NCBI GenBank assembly: GCA_945949035.1
Contig: CAMFDH010000038.1
Location: 1-9,279, forward strand
Source: an uncultured Actinomyces sp.
Lineage (GTDB): Bacteria; Actinomycetota; Actinomycetes; Actinomycetales; Actinomycetaceae
DNA length: 9,279 nucleotides
Reading direction: 5' to 3'
Part shown: piece after piece, positions 1,758 through 8,667 of the stretch
Position numbering within the stretch: position 1 is the first letter of the stretch
Layout of the letters: every line of letters starts with the position of its first letter
Notes under the pieces: model-generated
Databases searched by the model: none
What the model was told of the DNA's origin: nothing
The model's input: only the letters and a program-made list of their open reading frames with translations
Made by a program: the position numbers and the translations under genes

Positions 1758-2651
1758 TCATTCCCCCGAACCACCAGCCGTAGCAGGCTCGAACGTGCAC
1801 TTAGCGGTAGCGAGACCTTCGGGATAGAAAATCTTAGCGCCATACACATTCAGGCCACGCACAATGTCAGCGAACCGCCCCTGCTCACGCAGCGCCTCGA
1901 CCTCAGTCAGCTGGTTCGCAAACGAAAGCGCACCGGGAATACCAGCACACACGAGGCCGCCGGTCACATTGTTGGAAGTCAGCACATCAAAACCGAGTGC
2001 CCGACCAACAATTCCATTGCGCAGCGTCTCGGACGTACCGGACGCATCCACACGGGAGAACCGGGGATCATGCTGGAGCGCCGCAAGGAAATCAGGATCG
2101 ATAACCACATAGCGGCCATCAGTCGGAGTGTTTTCCTTGTTCAGCGCATTCGCCAACTTCACTAGCACGTCGTATGCCGTTAGCTGATCCGCTCCGGGAG
2201 TGTCGCCACCCACGCCGTTAATGACCTTCAGAGCACCGAGAGCGCTCTTAGGCCCGCCATTAGCAGCTGTCTTAGCGAACAGGGACGCGATGAACTTGTC
2301 CACCTTATCCTTGAGGCCAAACCCTGCACGCTGGGTTGCCGGAGACTGGAAATCACCAGCCGCCTGCACACGATCCACGTCGTTCACGCGGAACGCAAAG
2401 TAATCGCCCTGATCGATCACGAGCTTAATGTTCCCATCGGAAACATCCTCAATCTCGATATCGGTGCCCTTGTCGTAGCCATTGACAGTCGGGTCAGAAA
2501 TCGTGGTGACATTAACCGTGTCACCCATCTGCTTAATCTGACCCTCATACTTAGTGTTCGCAACCGTGGGCTGACCGAACACGAGAGACTTCTCGAACGG
2601 AAGCTTGACCTCAGCGGACCAAAGCTCCGGAATAAAATTAGTGACAGCCAT
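1758..2651 (-). CDS. Major capsid protein (P22-coat/HK97-fold type)
   Basis: A 297-residue protein starting MAVTNFIPELWSAEVKLPFE, the standard opening of actinophage P22-coat-like major capsid proteins. Other family-like segments are GDTVNVTTI, a strand pair IKLVIDQGDYFAFRVNDVD, the helix KDKVDKFIASLFAKTAA, and YVVIDPDFLAALQHDPRFS in the central domain. It assembles the icosahedral shell. The scaffold gene immediately upstream, and the absence of an obvious N-terminal protease-cleaved delta domain, are consistent with a separate scaffold rather than a delta domain. An ATG two codons earlier (2657) is possible but is only 2 bases from the AGGAGG at 2660-2665, whereas 2651 is 8 bases away; I therefore chose 2651. 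The scaffold stop codon lies inside this ribosome site, so capsid translation is coupled to scaffold translation. Confidence 0.88.
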   Translation of the reverse strand: MAVTNFIPELWSAEVKLPFEKSLVFGQPTVANTKYEGQIKQMGDTVNVTTISDPTVNGYDKGTDIEIEDVSDGNIKLVIDQGDYFAFRVNDVDRVQAAGDFQSPATQRAGFGLKDKVDKFIASLFAKTAANGGPKSALGALKVINGVGGDTPGADQLTAYDVLVKLANALNKENTPTDGRYVVIDPDFLAALQHDPRFSRVDASGTSETLRNGIVGRALGFDVLTSNNVTGGLVCAGIPGALSFANQLTEVEALREQGRFADIVRGLNVYGAKIFYPEGLATAKCTFEPATAGGSGE

Positions 2652-2659
2652 TGCCATCT

Positions 2660-2665
2660 CCTCCT
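2660..2665 (-). promoter_or_regulatory. Ribosome binding site of the capsid gene
   Basis: AGGAGG on the minus strand, overlapping the TAG stop of the scaffold gene (2664-2666). Its 8-base spacing to the ATG at 2651, against 2 bases to the ATG at 2657, decides the capsid start. Confidence 0.75.
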
Positions 2666-3287
2666 ATTGCTTGAGTAGATCCTTAAGCTGGCCCTTTTCC
2701 TTGGCCGCAAGGATTTGTTCTGATGTCATCGTTGCCAGATCGGCACGAGACAATTGCTTAAGATTCCCAGCATCACTAGAGCGTGCGCCGCCCTCGCCGG
2801 AACCTTCCGCACGGGCACGTTGCGCACCCAAATACGGCTTCTTATTGAGCAGGTCATCAATCGCAGTGTTGATCGCGTCCCCATCCACTTCGCCATCCTC
2901 GGAAACCTTAAAATCACTAAGGTTCAAGAACTTGAAAGCGTCACCCGGATCAGACAGCTTGCCCTTGGCAGCCGCCTTCACCTCGGAACGGACATAGCGC
3001 TGATTGACTTGAGACAGGACCGTTTCAATATCCTTGTCCTTCGCCGCCAGCTTCTGCTCAGCGGCATTCGCGCGATCACGCTCTGAATGCCAGCGGCTCT
3101 TCATTCGATCGAGTGCCTGTTTGCCAGCGTCGCCGAGGGATTCAGAACTTGCTTCCTCTTCCTCGTGTTCACCGGCAGACTCTTGATTCACCTGCTCATT
3201 AGTTGGTTCACCTTCGCCGCCACCCTCTTGATCGTCCGTTACCGAACGAATCCAAAACTTGCGTGCGGACATGCGGGAATCATGCAT
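2664..3287 (-). CDS. Capsid scaffolding protein
   Basis: A 207-residue, highly charged protein immediately upstream of the capsid gene, the usual place for a scaffold. Residues about 18-50 are acidic and low-complexity (DDQEGGGEGEP, GEHEEEEASSES). Residues about 53-95 look like a coiled coil (KQALDRMKSRWHSERDRANAAEQKL... pattern). A middle domain contains KGKLSDPGDAFKFLNLSDF, common in actinophage scaffolds, and the C-terminus ends TMTSEQILAAKEKGQLKDLLKQ, a short helical region of the sort that contacts the coat. The frame is open further upstream to 3371, but that would run into the MuF gene. AAGGAGAA at 3293-3300 places the start at ATG 3287, giving MHDSRMSARKF. The function is inferred from composition and synteny and is fairly firm. 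Confidence 0.82.
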   Translation of the reverse strand: MHDSRMSARKFWIRSVTDDQEGGGEGEPTNEQVNQESAGEHEEEEASSESLGDAGKQALDRMKSRWHSERDRANAAEQKLAAKDKDIETVLSQVNQRYVRSEVKAAAKGKLSDPGDAFKFLNLSDFKVSEDGEVDGDAINTAIDDLLNKKPYLGAQRARAEGSGEGGARSSDAGNLKQLSRADLATMTSEQILAAKEKGQLKDLLKQ

Positions 3288-3340
3288 TGTTATTCTCCTT
3301 GCGAGATTTGCCCTTCCGCCCTTGCGACGGATGGGAAGAA

Positions 3341-5491
3341 TTAGAAAATGTTGCCGCCAGTACGCAGCCAACGCCGGTAGTCTTTCTCCACCGAAGCAGC
3401 AACCTTTGGTGTAAGCGGCCCGCCATATGGGTTACGGCCAGCAACCACGGCATCCCATTTCGATTGGGCATCAAACATGCGCCGCTCAGCAGCCGTCATC
3501 GTGGCCACATTGCGTGGATCGCGCCGCCCCGTACGAACAGCTTCTTGGAACGCCTGAGTAGCTCCACGGCGTGTACCACCACGGCCCATATAGCCAGCGA
3601 ACCCCACCTCGTTACCGCGCAGAACACCACCAGCCTGCTGCCCACCGGGCAACAAATAGCCGTTGTCTTTCAACAGGCGCAACGCCTCATCACGAGACTT
3701 CGCCTGCTTGTAGATCCCATCCGGGGTAAGACGCCGATCCATGCCACCCATATGGCCACGCCGCGTCGTACCCTCCAACGTGGTCAAACCATCCTTTGAG
3801 ATACCGCGCCGCGAGTTGTAGACCTGATAGATATCGCCGCCATCACGGATAGCCTTGGCGTCAGCTTCACCCCAGAACTCGTCCTGCTCTTCGGCGCTCA
3901 TCGACTCGAAATGCGCATACGGATCAGTGAACTGGTTCTCGGCAAGATTCTTCGTCGTAGGAACATGCTGGCAATCGCAATTTGATACAATTAGATTGTT
4001 GGCAGAGTGCCAACCTTCTGAGGAGGTAACACTGTAAACATGCCCGCTCCAATCGATCCTCTCTACCTTGACAAGGCGGTCAGCTTCTACATGACCGGAA
4101 AGCCTGTTCAAGAGATCATTACCGCGCTCCCTATATCCCGCACTCGTCTCTACCGAGAACTCCGCAGCCGGGGCATCCCATCTAACAGGTACGAGACTCC
4201 GCTCCCTACGGAAGATGTCATCAACGCCTACAAATCCGGCGCTTCCGAAAATGCCCTCTCTAAGCGATATGAAGTTTCCAGAGAGCGAATCCGTAAAGAA
4301 CTCACTACCAATGGCGTCAGTATGCGCGGGCGATCCGAAGCTGGGATTACTCGCAATCTGCACATGACTTCCAGTGAAAGGAAAAAGCAGGCCGCTGCCG
4401 CTAATCGTGCTGCGCGTTTGCGAACCACGCCACAAATCACCAAGTTCAGACATGCCCTCGAAGTTGAAGGGAGGAATTCCACTCAATCCGATGGGGAAAT
4501 GTTGATGCTTAAAATGCTTGAAGAACGCGGATGTTCCCCAATCCCGCAACGAGCTATAGGGCCTTACAATGTCGACCTCGCCGTTAATCCCGTCGCCGTG
4601 GAAATCCTCGGGGGAGGTTGGCACTCGATCAAATCCGTTCACGCGGAACGTACTCCATATATCCTCGATGAGGGATGGCATTTGATTATGGTCTGGGACT
4701 ACGAGGGGCAAAGCTCCCTTGGAGTCGGTGGAGCGGAATACGTCATCTCCTTCATCGAGGAAATGCGCCGGAATCCACCCGCGACGTGTCAATACCGGGT
4801 GATTACTGGTCAGGGAAAGCTTTTGTCCGCTTGCGGTCGTGAGGATAACGAGTTCACCCTCATACCACCGCCTCGTAGCTCCCTCTAATTCCGGTCCCGA
4901 AACAACGGTTCCAGCAGGGAAGCAACTGGGGTGGCGTTGAAAGCCCGTGTTCCACATGTAAAACCGGCCCGCCAAAATCAGGCAATCGGGACACGATTCG
5001 CCCACAACCACGCGGGTATAACCCACGTGCTCGCGAGTTGCAACATCCGCCTGCGCCGCGCTCCGGCCCGTATCGGCAACCACCGTACGAAGAATCTGAG
5101 ACAAACCACGCTGGCCACGCTCCATCGCCTCAGACACCGGGATGCCATTCCCGATAGCCGACTTAGAGGTGACGACCGGCGTCCACAACAGCCCTTCGAG
5201 TGTGCGCCCGTCAGGTGCACTACCAGCGAAACCGCGAGGATCAACAAACGCCTGCGGAGCCGAATATGTTCCCTGCTCGGCCAGAACGTCCGCCCCATAT
5301 TCCGAAGCAGAGGTGGCAACATCCAACTGGACCGCAGTCAAAGCCGCGACAAGCTGACGTTGATTCACACGCCACGAACTCGCGATATTGCGAGGATCAG
5401 TCTGCCCCCACAGTTTCGAACCCTGCTTCACCGCCAAAACTTGAGCCGCCGCAACGCGATCAGCATGAATCCTAGACGCCGTAAGCATCAT
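3341..5491 (-). CDS. MuF-like minor head protein, interrupted by an in-frame intein
   Basis: A 716-residue precursor (401 after splicing). The N-terminal extein (about 189 residues) is helical (TASRIHADRVAAAQVLAV) and ends in the MuF-type cysteine region: ESCPDCLILAGRF followed by FQRHPS. The C-terminal extein resumes with CDCQHVPTTK, so splicing restores RHPS-CDCQHVP, the conserved MuF motif. The rest carries a basic, Gly-rich tail (DGLTTLEGTTRRGHMGGM; GYMGRGGTRRGATQAFQEAVRTG) seen in other actinophage MuF proteins. MuF (SPP1 gp7 family) binds the portal and is packed in small number in the head. The gene overlaps the portal stop by 20 bases. ATG 5491, ATG 5488 and an upstream start at 5512 are all possible; MMLTASRIHADR is the most natural beginning. 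The C-terminal part shows no recognised toxin motif. Confidence 0.85.
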   Translation of the reverse strand: MMLTASRIHADRVAAAQVLAVKQGSKLWGQTDPRNIASSWRVNQRQLVAALTAVQLDVATSASEYGADVLAEQGTYSAPQAFVDPRGFAGSAPDGRTLEGLLWTPVVTSKSAIGNGIPVSEAMERGQRGLSQILRTVVADTGRSAAQADVATREHVGYTRVVVGESCPDCLILAGRFYMWNTGFQRHPSCFPAGTVVSGPELEGATRRWYEGELVILTTASGQKLSLTSNHPVLTRRGWIPAHFLDEGDDVFRSTDSKGALPLVVPDHNQMPSLIEDIWSTFRVNGFDRVPTSPEDFHGDGINGEVDIVRPYSSLRDWGTSAFFKHFKHQHFPIGLSGIPPFNFEGMSELGDLWRGSQTRSTISGSGLLFPFTGSHVQIASNPSFGSPAHTDAIGSEFFTDSLSGNFISLREGIFGSAGFVGVDDIFRRERSLVPVRWDAPAAEFSVETSAGYRERGNDLLNRLSGHVEADRLVKVERIDWSGHVYSVTSSEGWHSANNLIVSNCDCQHVPTTKNLAENQFTDPYAHFESMSAEEQDEFWGEADAKAIRDGGDIYQVYNSRRGISKDGLTTLEGTTRRGHMGGMDRRLTPDGIYKQAKSRDEALRLLKDNGYLLPGGQQAGGVLRGNEVGFAGYMGRGGTRRGATQAFQEAVRTGRRDPRNVATMTAAERRMFDAQSKWDAVVAGRNPYGGPLTPKVAASVEKDYRRWLRTGGNIF
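3983..3991 (+). promoter_or_regulatory. Candidate extended -10 promoter for the antisense endonuclease
   Basis: TGATACAAT reads as TGn followed by TACAAT, five of six matches to TATAAT with the extended -10 TG. No good -35 is seen at 16-18 bases upstream, which extended -10 promoters tolerate. The predicted start of transcription would be near 3998. The site lies in the codons of the last residues of the intein (Ile-Val-Ser-Asn), so it is inside the element. A single match of this kind can arise by chance. Confidence 0.45.
3998..4014 (+). repeat. Perfect 7-bp hairpin ahead of the endonuclease ribosome site
   Basis: GTTGGCA (3998-4004) and TGCCAAC (4008-4014) are perfect inverted copies around a GAG loop. 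It would be at the very 5' end of a transcript from the extended -10 site and 6 bases before the Shine-Dalgarno region. On the sense strand it encodes Trp-His-Ser-Ala-Asn of intein block F/G. It could stabilise the leader, be a protein operator, or be a by-product of the intein codons. Confidence 0.45.
4021..4027 (+). promoter_or_regulatory. Shine-Dalgarno site of the antisense endonuclease
   Basis: AGGAGGT precedes ATG 4040 by 12 bases, slightly long but strong. On the other strand the same bases are the intein block F codons for Thr-Ser-Ser. It supports real translation of the plus-strand frame, unlike the other long plus-strand frames in the window. Confidence 0.65.
4040..4888 (+). CDS. 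Vsr-like (EDxHD-type) homing endonuclease, encoded antisense within the intein
   Basis: A 282-residue protein on the strand opposite the intein. Residues about 9-45 and 57-92 form two helix-turn-helix-like repeats (VSFYMTGKPVQEIITALPIS; YKSGASENALSKRYEVSRER), each ending in a 'L..RGI/L..NGV' turn. A basic link follows (SSERKKQAAAANRAARLR, about 111-128). The nuclease domain is about 148-222: Glu153, then GPYNVDLAV with Asp179, VAVEILGGGWHS with Glu188 and His195, HAER, and DEGWHLIMVWDYE. This matches the Vsr/DUF559 order of Asp, (F/G)WH and GW-x-(hydrophobic)3-VW-(D/E). Vsr-like EDxHD enzymes are known homing endonucleases linked to inteins and introns. The likely target is the intein-free MuF allele. 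The composition is normal, with acidic and aromatic residues, unlike the Arg/Thr/His-rich shadow frames. Activity and target are inferred. Confidence 0.85.
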   Translation: MPAPIDPLYLDKAVSFYMTGKPVQEIITALPISRTRLYRELRSRGIPSNRYETPLPTEDVINAYKSGASENALSKRYEVSRERIRKELTTNGVSMRGRSEAGITRNLHMTSSERKKQAAAANRAARLRTTPQITKFRHALEVEGRNSTQSDGEMLMLKMLEERGCSPIPQRAIGPYNVDLAVNPVAVEILGGGWHSIKSVHAERTPYILDEGWHLIMVWDYEGQSSLGVGGAEYVISFIEEMRRNPPATCQYRVITGQGKLLSACGREDNEFTLIPPPRSSL

Positions 5492-6944
5492 TGTTTCCCA
5501 ACCTGTCCACAATCGCCGCCACGTCCGGATCAGACTGTTCGCGACGCTTCATCTCAAGAATCCGCTCACGGTCAGCCGGAGAAACATCCTCCAGCTCCAT
5601 CAAATACTCAAACGGATAACCAACCTGCCGCTTCTTCAGCAGCGCGTCAGCCAACTGGGCATCAGAACGAATCGCAGGATTCTTCCACTTAACCGAACTA
5701 GGCGTAATAGCCGCAGAATATGAGCCAACACCCTGCGCCTGAGCCATTAACTTAAACACTTCAGACAACGGATCAGAGCTAAACAGCTGAAACTCTTCAC
5801 CCTTCTTCACCAGCGGCGTCTCCGTGGCCGTGAGCGTATCCCCGTTCACGTTCGAAAGACCGCTGTTTTGAATGAAATAGTGCGCCGGTACACGCGTCTG
5901 AGACGCAATATGACCGATACCGATCTCAACCACGTTCGTGAACACGTCCAGCTTCGCCGCATCCCACTGGCCAATCTTCGTATTCTGCCCTGTCAGCCAC
6001 AGCAAACGCCCGTGCTGCAATTCCTTAATATCAACAGGCTTTTCACCAATCTTCTGCCCATTCTCATCAAGGATCGGCAACTTAGGCGGCTCCTGCCCCA
6101 TCACCACACGAGCAGGGAAAGAAGCATGGTCAGCAGCAGCAAACAGATAAGCCCACAAAAGATTGATAGCGTTCTGCATCGCCACCGTGCCGTGAATATC
6201 CGAAATCGGGCCACGGCCAAGACGCGGACGATTCGGAATCTCAACCAACGGCACCGTGTCAAAACCATGCCGGATCGGCCAACCATCATCGCTGTTCGGC
6301 TGCCACGGCTGCCAGCCATTTCCCTCGCCAACCATCCGATGCGCCGTCGCCGTCGGGAGAATAATCCCGCCAGCAACCACACCCTTACGATCCACAGTCT
6401 CAGCAACCTTCCGCTGAAACTTGTAGGCATGCGTCGAGTCATAGAGCACCGCAAACTCGGTCTTATCATCCACCCAAGACTTAAGACCATACAGGCGTAC
6501 ACGAGGATTCGCCGCATCATGCTGCACGATAGACGTTGCCGGATGCTCCCACGTCACCACCGGGTTATCATCACGTCCCGGCCACACGAGCACGTTAGAA
6601 CGCTTCGCAACAATCGACTGGAGGAAACCCTGCGAAGATTGAGCACTCAGGTTATTCGCTTCCCAAGCCCTCCACAGATCATCCTCCCAGTGTTCACGAG
6701 TCTTGCCAGAACGGAAATCCTTCACCTGTAGACGCTCATTCAACGCATCAGGCGGAACCCCGCACCAATTGTCGGCAAACCCCGTGTAGCGGTCCTTATG
6801 GAACTCGGACCACTCACGCGACGCAAACTTAAGAGGCTGCTTCCCCTCATAGAAATCATCAAACTGGACAATGTCAGGACGCCGCTCCTGCAAACGTCCA
6901 TACAGCTTGCCCACCTTGCGGAGAGCATCATCATAAGTGAGCAC
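5472..6944 (-). CDS. Portal protein (SPP1 gp6-like)
   Basis: A 490-residue protein, the usual size for this family. It begins MLTYDDALRKVGKLYGRLQE and has FDDFYEGKQPLKFAS, then FADNWCGVPPDALNERL, typical of the N-terminal wing of SPP1-type portals in actinophages. Further marks are NRPRLGRGPISDIHGTVAMQNAINLLW (stem/clip-proximal helix region) and RVPAHYFIQNSGLSNVNGDTL followed by a helical C-terminal region. Twelve copies form the ring through which DNA enters the head. Start is GTG 6944 with AGGAGG at 6950-6955, five bases away; the terminase stop TAG (6954-6956) overlaps this ribosome site. It overlaps the MuF start downstream. No anomalies are visible. The identification is strong. Confidence 0.9.
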   Translation of the reverse strand: MLTYDDALRKVGKLYGRLQERRPDIVQFDDFYEGKQPLKFASREWSEFHKDRYTGFADNWCGVPPDALNERLQVKDFRSGKTREHWEDDLWRAWEANNLSAQSSQGFLQSIVAKRSNVLVWPGRDDNPVVTWEHPATSIVQHDAANPRVRLYGLKSWVDDKTEFAVLYDSTHAYKFQRKVAETVDRKGVVAGGIILPTATAHRMVGEGNGWQPWQPNSDDGWPIRHGFDTVPLVEIPNRPRLGRGPISDIHGTVAMQNAINLLWAYLFAAADHASFPARVVMGQEPPKLPILDENGQKIGEKPVDIKELQHGRLLWLTGQNTKIGQWDAAKLDVFTNVVEIGIGHIASQTRVPAHYFIQNSGLSNVNGDTLTATETPLVKKGEEFQLFSSDPLSEVFKLMAQAQGVGSYSAAITPSSVKWKNPAIRSDAQLADALLKKRQVGYPFEYLMELEDVSPADRERILEMKRREQSDPDVAAIVDRLGNNDAYGV

Positions 6945-6953
6945 TACACCCTC

Positions 6954-7643
6954 CTAAGCAAAAAACGCATACGCCGGAGTCTCCTCGACCCAGCCAGCCG
7001 CACGCGCATCAGCAGCGGCCTCATGACACAACAGCGACGCCGCACTAGCGTCAATCTTTTGAACCTGAGAAGGCTTACCCATCCCATACCGATCAGCAGT
7101 CTTAGCAATCTTGCGAACATTCCCCATGTGGGTAGTGGTGATCGGACAACCATCGTGAGTAATCTTCCGATGCTCCAAATCCGCCTCAAAACGACGCATC
7201 GCAGCATAAACCGCATTTACACGAGCATTGCCAGCCATCTGCCACGGAATAAACACCTTCGGGCCATACTGTTGATCCCACGTCTCAATCTCAGTCTCAT
7301 AGCTGGATTCGTCACGGAAACCCGGATCACAATAAGCGCGAACAATCTGATAGCGGCGAGCAATCTCATCCATCGCCACATTCACCTCAGAACGAGGAAT
7401 ACGGCCACCCCACTCGGCAGGATTCCAAATCGTCGGCCTATCATCCGGCCCATAACGCGGAGTAAACAACAGTCCCTCACGTGTCTCGCACTTAATGACA
7501 GTCCAATCATCGTTCTCACTGCCGTCCATACCAACCGCGACCGATGTTCCGTCAGGAGGATTCGGCAACCAAACCTGAATACGCACCAGCCCACAACCCC
7601 TCAGACAACCATGCACCTTGGCCCTGCACCAGACGATTCCCAA
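6954..7643 (-). CDS. terL: Terminase large subunit, C-terminal nuclease part (separate frame)
   Basis: This frame holds the RNase H-like nuclease domain of TerL: PPDGTSVAVGMDGSENDDWT (first catalytic Asp in GMDGS), IVRAYCDPGF (second Asp in YCDP), and QKIDASAASLLCHEA (third Asp). IWNPAEWGGRIPRSEV and ITHDGCPITTTHMGN are also characteristic of actinophage TerL. All three acidic residues are present, so the domain looks functional. The first 25-30 codons after the nominal TTG at 7643 (MGIVWCRAKVHGC...) do not resemble terminase; in that stretch the upstream frame encodes the real sequence. The authentic part starts near LPNPPDG, about 7573. There is no convincing ribosome site, so independent translation is doubtful. 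It lies +1 relative to the ATPase frame and stops just before the portal. Confidence 0.85.
   Translation of the reverse strand: MGIVWCRAKVHGCLRGCGLVRIQVWLPNPPDGTSVAVGMDGSENDDWTVIKCETREGLLFTPRYGPDDRPTIWNPAEWGGRIPRSEVNVAMDEIARRYQIVRAYCDPGFRDESSYETEIETWDQQYGPKVFIPWQMAGNARVNAVYAAMRRFEADLEHRKITHDGCPITTTHMGNVRKIAKTADRYGMGKPSQVQKIDASAASLLCHEAAADARAAGWVEETPAYAFFA
7551..7590 (-). other. Frame break in terL: possible +1 shift at UCC UGA C or one-base indel
   Basis: The ATPase frame ends ...GLWAGAYSGLVAESS with TGA at 7552-7554. The nuclease frame is one base ahead and reads DGTSVAVGMDGS from GAC at 7551-7553. Skipping the T at 7554 after TCC joins the frames as ESS-DGTSV. UCC UGA followed by a pyrimidine is the +1 shift context of animal and fungal antizyme genes, and UGA C is a weak stop context also used by prfB. 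No Shine-Dalgarno stimulator is seen upstream. Alternatively the shift is earlier: the nuclease frame is already terminase-like at LPNPPDG, so one inserted base (or two lost) between about 7570 and 7590 would also explain it. Confidence 0.7.
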
Positions 7644-8667
7644 AAAACCGTTCAGCCTGCGCCGGATCAGACTTCAATAACTTCGCCGTCTCCGCCTCGA
7701 TAGAATCGATATTCACCCACCAAGAACCCTCATAGACATACTCGAAGATCTTGCGACGGTTAGCCTTCTTGAGAAACGAAATCGGACGCCCATCCTCACC
7801 CAACAAATCCGGGTTAAGATCCGGATTCCGGAAAAACACGAACGTATCGTCCTGCCCCGCCTCATAAGTCCGCTGCGCATAACTAGACTCGGTGGGGTCC
7901 CACGCATTCGTAGTCAAATGAACACGCCCACCCATACCGGCAGCACCACGCGCCTGAGTATCCGCAAACGAAATCATCCGATTAGACTTCGTATAAAGCC
8001 CGGCCTCATCCTGCTCAGCATCCGAAATCGGATTACCCAACCGAGACGAAGCCTCAGCCGTCACCGCATCAATACGATCCGCATCCTCAGAACTCGAAAG
8101 CCCCAACACGCGCATAAACCCTTGACGAGGAGCCAAAACATTCCTTAGCGGCCCATTCTCCACCGAATACTTGAGCGGACGATAAACATTGAACGCCTGA
8201 TCCTGAGAAAACGCGCCAATCTGAATCAACGGCGAAGGATGCCGCATACCAATCGGCTCACCCGACTCATAACGCCACTCAAACCCACACGAACACCCAT
8301 TATCGGCACAACGGTACGCCTCGCCACCCTTAGCCCAACCCGCAAACACGGACGGACCAACAGCCTCAAAAGCAACCTGAGCAGCAGAATACGGCCCCTT
8401 ACCCGTCTTTTGCGGCCCAACAATAAGAGTGCGCTGATAATAAAACGCCTGATTCAAAACAGGAGGATTATCCGGCCCCACAAGCTCAGTAGGAACAAAC
8501 GTAGCATCCTCACGAACCCGATAACGATTCGCATGACACCAAAACTGCCAATCAGCCATCTCGTAAGGTTTCCCGCGAGCAAAGCCTTGCGGCACAAGCA
8601 TATGGGCCGTGATCCACGCGTCCCCAAGATCCCCCAAAGTAGGGAAATCAACACGAAACTCACTCAC
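7552..8667 (-). CDS. terL: Terminase large subunit, N-terminal ATPase part
   Basis: 371 residues covering the packaging ATPase. The Walker A is GPQKTGKG (residues 84-91) after FYYQRTLIV; the Walker B with catalytic Glu is AEQDEAGLY (Asp220-Glu221). A cysteine cluster YRCADNGCSCGFEW (about 118-131) lies between them, a common insert in actinophage TerL. The C-terminal end RFFGNRLVQGQGAWLSEGLW is the conserved end of the ATPase/linker region, after which a nuclease domain is expected but the frame stops. The two parts together would give about 570 residues, the normal family size. Start is GTG 8667, overlapping the small-subunit stop as GTGA; the ribosome site is weak, so coupling is likely. 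TerL powers DNA translocation through the portal and cuts the concatemer. Confidence 0.88.
   Translation of the reverse strand: MSEFRVDFPTLGDLGDAWITAHMLVPQGFARGKPYEMADWQFWCHANRYRVREDATFVPTELVGPDNPPVLNQAFYYQRTLIVGPQKTGKGPYSAAQVAFEAVGPSVFAGWAKGGEAYRCADNGCSCGFEWRYESGEPIGMRHPSPLIQIGAFSQDQAFNVYRPLKYSVENGPLRNVLAPRQGFMRVLGLSSSEDADRIDAVTAEASSRLGNPISDAEQDEAGLYTKSNRMISFADTQARGAAGMGGRVHLTTNAWDPTESSYAQRTYEAGQDDTFVFFRNPDLNPDLLGEDGRPISFLKKANRRKIFEYVYEGSWWVNIDSIEAETAKLLKSDPAQAERFFGNRLVQGQGAWLSEGLWAGAYSGLVAESS

Follow-up and report, generated by a model that had tools for sequence, protein, structure and literature searches.

The stretch of DNA analysed here (the window) is one whole contig, C38, of 9,279 bases, which belongs to an incomplete assembly of 303 contigs from an uncultured Actinomyces sp. 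Its minus strand carries head genes of a tailed phage, coding for a portal, a MuF-type head protein, a capsid protein and, as judged by eye, a terminase. The gene of the MuF-type minor head or head-maturation protein (3341..5512, minus strand, 723 codons, start codon uncertain) matches the head maturation protease family phrog_1522 (2.9e-111) and the head protein family phrog_15127 (7.2e-30) in a profile search. It is interrupted by an intein of 315 amino acids (3980..4924, minus strand), and the opposite strand of this intein holds an open reading frame (ORF) of 282 codons beginning with ATG (4040..4888, plus strand), which is predicted to encode a homing endonuclease of the Vsr/EDxHD type.

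The intein lies in the MuF protein between CPDCLILAGRFYMWNTGFQRHPS and CDC. The features of a class 1 intein are found in it: Cys1 (4922-4924), a block B of TxxH type (TSNHPVLT), blocks F and G (GHVYSVTSSEGWHSANNLIVSN), the C-terminal Asn315 (3980-3982) and the +1 Cys (3977-3979). The complete minus-strand intein within a conserved MuF motif, as proposed in the sequence-only reading, could thus be located in all these elements; the position preceding the final Asn is occupied by Ser instead of the penultimate His of class 1 inteins. This His is a usual feature of inteins and not a strict one. The ends of 95 delimited relatives read Ser-Asn in 46 cases, His-Asn in 45 and Lys-Asn in four, which is not an independent count of intein features, since the script that delimited these 95 of 107 loci required Cys1 and a Ser, His, Lys or Gln before the Asn. 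The remaining 12 loci, with no junction resolved by the script, are absent from this count and from the extein and intein identities given below. At least nine relatives (L049, L053, L057, L058, L062, L064, L065, L066 and L077) appear to have a Hint domain initiated by Ala (R/K-AE[LVI]...) rather than Cys, and in some of them the Cys1 chosen by the script lies too far upstream.

The sense product is modelled with confidence mainly at its two Hint ends. The mean predicted local distance difference test (pLDDT) score ranges from 81 to 98 per ten-residue block over amino acids 1-70 and 251-315, and segments 74-79, 105-110 and 123-244 fall under 50, with block 81-90 reaching 87. The N-terminal Hint part (amino acids 1-65, 4730..4924, minus strand) contains block B, in which T39, N41, H42 and P43 are invariant across 49 sequences; the C-terminal Hint part (amino acids 250-315, 3980..4177, minus strand) contains blocks F and G. 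Between them lies a middle region (amino acids 66-249, 4178..4729, minus strand), mostly devoid of confident sense structure and most variable at sense codon position 1. For the sense model, the best Foldseek matches are solved inteins (E 3e-3 to 1e-2), the Hint fold being found at the ends. The Pfam Intein_splicing profile (PF14890) gives 2.3e-3 and 18.2 bits, under its cut-off of 35.8. Profile searches gave no nuclease family that would be specific for the sense middle and did not reveal an in-frame endonuclease domain.

The coordinates confirm that the antisense ORF lies wholly within the intein, of which only 60 and 36 bases are left uncovered, as had been noted from the sequence. The two frames are in exact register. 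Each codon of the plus ORF reads as the precise reverse complement of one sense codon, plus positions 1, 2 and 3 face sense positions 3, 2 and 1, and residue p of the plus protein sits opposite intein residue 296-p. Only the sense codons TTA, CTA and TCA stop the antisense frame in this register. They occur in the window intein at codons 13 (the stop of the ORF itself), 302, 311 and 314, all four outside the 282 coding codons of the ORF.

Two points limit what the openness of this frame can show. In the window alone, its openness is no better than chance and was rejected as evidence, the portal gene having an open antisense run of 326 codons; antisense tblastn matches were likewise rejected as evidence on their own, given that the control translation of this portal ORF matches other portal genes in 36 shadow records. 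Moreover, loci fetched with the plus protein favour intact plus frames. Since openness is insufficient, tests separating a real antisense gene from a shadow of the sense gene were therefore sought.

The analysed set comprises 107 loci: the window, the phages Malisha, Fosterous and Snoke, and 103 loci (L005-L107) from a search with alignment A1, namely the best 80 of at least 549 IMG/VR stretches and 23 genome contigs. In all 107, no stop is found in the plus frame within the match, nor in the exact-register minus frame. Antisense-stop codons number 0 in 28,840 intein codons versus 481 in 38,892 extein codons of the same ORFs, about 385 being expected in the inteins by a count that treats the loci as if they had no shared ancestry. 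A reverse check used 15 phage loci fetched by the sense N-terminal Hint part, from 60 listed of 136 found; L123, whose record ends inside a terminase Hint region, was excluded from the intein count. All 14 complete inteins of this set have a long exact-register antisense ORF, of 181 amino acids in Rhodococcus phage REQ3 and with more than 220 codons open in the others. By eye and by alignment, 12 of them are of the same kind as in the window and two are of another kind. The plus frame is thus not regularly broken in homologous inteins. The shortened REQ3 ORF (L117, 2498-3043, minus strand) contains the nuclease part only, and the REQ3 intein apparently begins with Ala and not Cys.

The decisive test came from codon positions. 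Relatives were compared in 21 disjoint pairs with 56-90% identity. Plus position 3 is more variable than position 1 over plus amino acids 31-230 in every pair (1768 versus 1081 differences in 4175 codons; sign test 9.5e-7), and the same third-position excess is seen for amino acids 51-149 and for the nuclease region 150-222. In the exteins of the same pairs, compared for the 18 of 21 in which the two junctions could be resolved, variation is highest at the sense third position (0.519 versus 0.345 and 0.282). Six phage pairs made up of sense-fetched loci together with L003 and L004, and partly non-independent, also show more plus third-position than first-position changes over amino acids 51-222. 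Opposite the two Hint parts, the bias goes towards the sense strand, without significance: 14 pairs versus 6 with one tie for the N-terminal part, 12 versus 8 for the C-terminal one. Second codon positions are the least variable there, which fits constraint on both strands. GC content by codon position does not discriminate clearly (0.639/0.467/0.677 in the middle). By this regional pattern, the intein middle is primarily an antisense gene, with double coding confined to the ends. The endonuclease core mostly faces the non-Hint middle, and both proteins look constrained only at the two ends. The opposite-strand arrangement first read from the sequence stands, with refinements: dual constraint is limited to these ends, the family is large, and a second nuclease type is found in Gordonia phages.

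Translation signals give further support to a gene on the plus strand. The ATG (4040..4042) faces the codon for the block F His on the sense strand (G-H-V-Y), an arrangement which recurs in relatives. The residue before the V-Y of block F is His in 90 of 102 inteins with a recognisable block F, and the codon opposite this position is a start codon in 91 of the 102 (65 ATG, 25 GTG and one TTG). A Shine-Dalgarno match of at least 4 nucleotides (nt) at a spacing of 4-11 nt precedes 83 of these 91 starts, versus 121 of 713 internal ATG or GTG codons. In the window, the Shine-Dalgarno sequence AGGAGGT (4021..4027, plus strand) is indeed as strong as had been claimed; its distance from the ATG is 12 nt, longer than the 7-9 nt common among relatives and just beyond the range used for the class-wide count. 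A plus-strand promoter was looked for in connection with this ORF and none was recognised. The nuclease gene is unannotated in the intein-bearing phage records fetched.

The AlphaFold model of the antisense protein has a mean pLDDT of 93.7 and matches, by structure comparison, Vsr and the I-Bth0305I homing-endonuclease domain, the latter being its closest homing relative by fold. The N-terminal DNA-binding units expected of EDxHD homing endonucleases are recognised through profiles and model helices as a predicted tandem helix-turn-helix region (amino acids 7-95, 4058..4324, plus strand), which matches the DNA-binding protein family phrog_1303 (3.8e-10) and the Cbp1 helix-turn-helix profile (5.2e-5, under its cut-off). 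Nuclease and helix-turn-helix profiles were absent from the control antisense ORFs. The suspected helix-turn-helix repeats and Vsr-like nuclease are thus borne out by profile and fold matches.

The predicted nuclease domain (amino acids 148-244, 4481..4771, plus strand) contains four putative active-site residues. E153 (4496..4498) is conserved in 101 of the 107 loci and D179 (4574..4576) in all of them. E188 (4601..4603), which faces F108 of the sense motif DFHGDG, is also present in 107 of 107, having been part of the fetch pattern for these loci. Each of these three is kept in 12 of 12 sense-fetched phage loci. H195 (4622..4624), found in 104 of the 107 loci and in 4 of the 12, is kept in near relatives only. 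Nine of the 107 loci are without at least one of the four residues, one of them owing to an alignment gap. The EDxHD motif is incomplete in the window, no final D being recognised. The window protein has no match to the Pfam Vsr profile up to E = 1, and the Malisha protein reaches 17.8 bits against a cut-off of 27. Membership in the EDxHD endonucleases is therefore a prediction, drawn from a Vsr-like catalytic fold and helix-turn-helix units together with an incomplete motif. In the sense-fetched phage loci L109 and L112-L122, and in L003 and L004, the antisense frame is open with E153, D179 and E188 kept and the GGxWH motif around H195 often altered; those with an altered motif may hold diverged or inactive nucleases inside intact inteins.

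At E up to 1e-3, the plus protein has 144 matches among database proteins. The GGx[WF]H motif is present in 119 of the 120 relatives listed, 13 of which carry the JGI name "very-short-patch-repair endonuclease". The record titles of the IMG/VR stretches and genome contigs that encode a relative name Actinobacteria, Chloroflexi, Proteobacteria, Firmicutes, Gemmatimonadales, Chitinophaga, Scytonema and others. The intein with an antisense ORF is a large, widespread family and not a single case. A family profile matched in 37 of 149 related genomes, that of the window included; because the other matches lie mostly over the helix-turn-helix part, no free-standing full-length relative was found in these 149 genomes. 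Proteins of related genomes that match mainly this tandem part are represented by L131-L141.

Empty, occupied and replaced sites were found. The empty form of the window's site is seen in Arthrobacter phage Anekin (DRHPR/CDCVHVPTT, the stroke marking the insertion point), and the Gordonia phages Geodirt and Ailee have the uninterrupted MuF site APHEVIN/CRCTML. The empty-site motif was not matched by the script in Tangent (L125), fetched as a candidate empty site. Gordonia phages with near-identical flanks contain either the empty site, an insert of the Vsr-like type, or an unrelated one whose antisense ORF is LAGLIDADG-like. Fosterous and Nordenberg, for example, are 97.6 and 97.9% identical in their MuF flanks and 33% in their inteins. 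A similar contrast is observed between L011 and L022, with 95% protein identity in the exteins and 51% in the inteins, and with DNA identities of 87 and 86% in the exteins and 77% in the inteins. In L099, an intein of the same kind has a different Cys of MuF as its insertion point (CAFC, before WSMHG).

These data point, with a probability of roughly 0.8, to an intein carrying on its opposite strand, in exact register, a conserved coding gene for a predicted Vsr/EDxHD-type homing endonuclease, which would likely cut intein-free MuF genes and thereby promote copying of the element. The two frames, their register, the codon-level constraint, the fold similarity of the models, the recurring start and Shine-Dalgarno sequence and the empty and occupied alleles are most simply explained if one strand provides splicing and the other cutting; splicing, antisense expression, cutting and homing are what we infer from them. 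On the sense strand, the Hint halves at the two ends would come together in folding and cut the intein out of the MuF protein, its middle being probably a floppy spacer that is discarded. From the opposite strand, a separate protein would be made, likely from its own start codon and Shine-Dalgarno sequence on an antisense transcript. Its helix-turn-helix units would read a long site and its Vsr-like domain would cut, and repair of the break off the intein-bearing copy would convert the empty allele.

An unlikely alternative, and the one which survives best, is that the antisense gene is real but no longer encodes a homing endonuclease: its product would be a Vsr-like protein, decayed or turned to another use in DNA binding or repair, and kept for a different reason. 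Vsr itself is a repair enzyme, cleavage by the antisense protein is a prediction, and the alteration of H195 in 8 of the 12 phage loci, like the nine incomplete sites among the 107, would fit such a decay. However, all four putative residues are intact in the window and the three others are kept throughout the phage loci. The location in an intein, with presence, absence and replacement at one site, is what homing produces, and the nearest homing relative by fold, I-Bth0305I, also argues for a homing function. It is far less probable that the insert fails to splice and stays in the MuF protein as a disordered segment which the protein tolerates, a possibility raised for the ShiLan element (see below). 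The low Intein_splicing score and the penultimate Ser go in this direction; against it stand Cys1, block B, block F, the final Asn and the +1 Cys, the block B residues invariant in 49 relatives and the solved inteins as top structural matches. The view that the plus frame is a mere shadow, conserved and open only as the exact-register antisense of a conserved intein, is the least credible and was rejected: chance-open runs such as that of the portal do occur and give tblastn matches, but the plus third-position excess in 21 of 21 pairs is the opposite of a sense-driven shadow, the antisense model is confident where the sense middle is mostly unstructured, the nuclease and helix-turn-helix profiles are absent from the control antisense ORFs, and Shine-Dalgarno sequences are enriched at the starts.

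Beside the endonuclease-bearing inteins of Vsr-like type, the Gordonia phages SchottB (L110) and Nordenberg (L111) have inteins with an exact-register antisense ORF of another kind (approximately 2504-3091, minus strand), at the site which holds the EDxHD-type insert in Fosterous. It reads MKLDPVAAAYVAAFIDGEGTVTV and looks LAGLIDADG-like by motif. It matches I-MsoI (1.3e-3) and free-standing genes of Cyanophage PP (2e-6, annotated "DNA endonuclease") and Caulobacter phage CcrRogue (8e-6, annotated "putative HNH homing endonuclease"); the Pfam LAGLIDADG_3 profile gives 0.26 for Nordenberg, under its cut-off, and no match for SchottB. Between these two phages, antisense codon positions 1, 2 and 3 differ in 7, 2 and 40 places over amino acids 1-130, and in 9, 4 and 11 places over amino acids 131-196. 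A similar antisense ORF was detected by tblastn in the MuF gene of Sitar, Lennon, Thing3 and Barsten, and no IMG/VR relatives were found with a single-sequence query. The ORF of SchottB and Nordenberg suggests that a different nuclease was captured independently in this opposite-strand arrangement. It seems probable that antisense endonuclease inteins are a general, repeatedly evolved mobile class, with at least two unrelated folds (Vsr/EDxHD and LAGLIDADG) in the same codon register, in which the block F His doubles as the nuclease start and DFHGDG reflects the nuclease active site. In L106, an EDxHD-type antisense ORF (3842-4738, plus strand) lies opposite a sense ORF (2987-6091, minus strand) whose N-terminal Hint part is of the longer type, like that of SchottB and Nordenberg, which suggests that nuclease and Hint lineages may recombine.

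Mobile inteins usually carry an in-frame homing endonuclease domain, LAGLIDADG or HNH. As in these, the Hint halves flank a central region, the insertion lies in a conserved motif, and empty and occupied alleles are found. In contrast, the nuclease is here on the other strand, outside the intein polypeptide, and the sense middle is mostly without confident structure. Inteins are thought to move by means of an endonuclease within them or encoded beside them. Dassa and colleagues reportedly described in 2009 fractured genes with split inteins, in which an endonuclease of this kind stands as a separate gene between the two halves. The same nuclease kind is paired there with Hint domains, whereas the intein of the window is in one piece and the same base pairs serve both coding regions. 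Homing endonucleases of the EDxHD type I-Bth0305I (PMC3943268) combine a Vsr-like catalytic fold with extra DNA-binding units, as predicted for the antisense protein; the latter differs in being encoded antisense within an intein and in the last acidic position of the motif, for which no residue was recognised. The ShiLan element of a phage methylase (PMC11855218) is an insert that the host frame reads through, with a homing-type HNH endonuclease out of frame. It shares with our case a phage insert that hides an endonuclease in another frame. In our case, by contrast, Hint domains are present, the endonuclease lies on the opposite strand and its fold is Vsr-like. Among the titles and abstract beginnings covered, this out-of-frame HNH insert is the nearest arrangement, and an endonuclease antisense inside an intein was not described; a preprint on actinobacteriophage inteins of "non-canonical architecture" (10.1101/2025.01.02.630785) lies outside this scope and may cover some of the Gordonia cases.

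If this interpretation is true, the nuclease is freed from the splicing polypeptide in a compact element where the loss of one function is tied to damage of the other. The family would also offer a large natural set of antisense overlapping genes with predicted folds assignable to both products, and, the double constraint being limited to known stretches, ideas on gene overlap would become directly testable. It calls for caution in annotation too, since head proteins can contain the sense reading of a nuclease.

Elsewhere in the window, what by eye resembles the terminase large subunit appears divided between two ORFs (6954-7643 and 7552-8667, minus strand) that overlap in different frames, as if by a frameshift, real or due to an assembly error. 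The portal and the capsid protein match PF05133 (3.8e-19) and PF25209 (3.9e-10), respectively, in profile searches with the window proteins.

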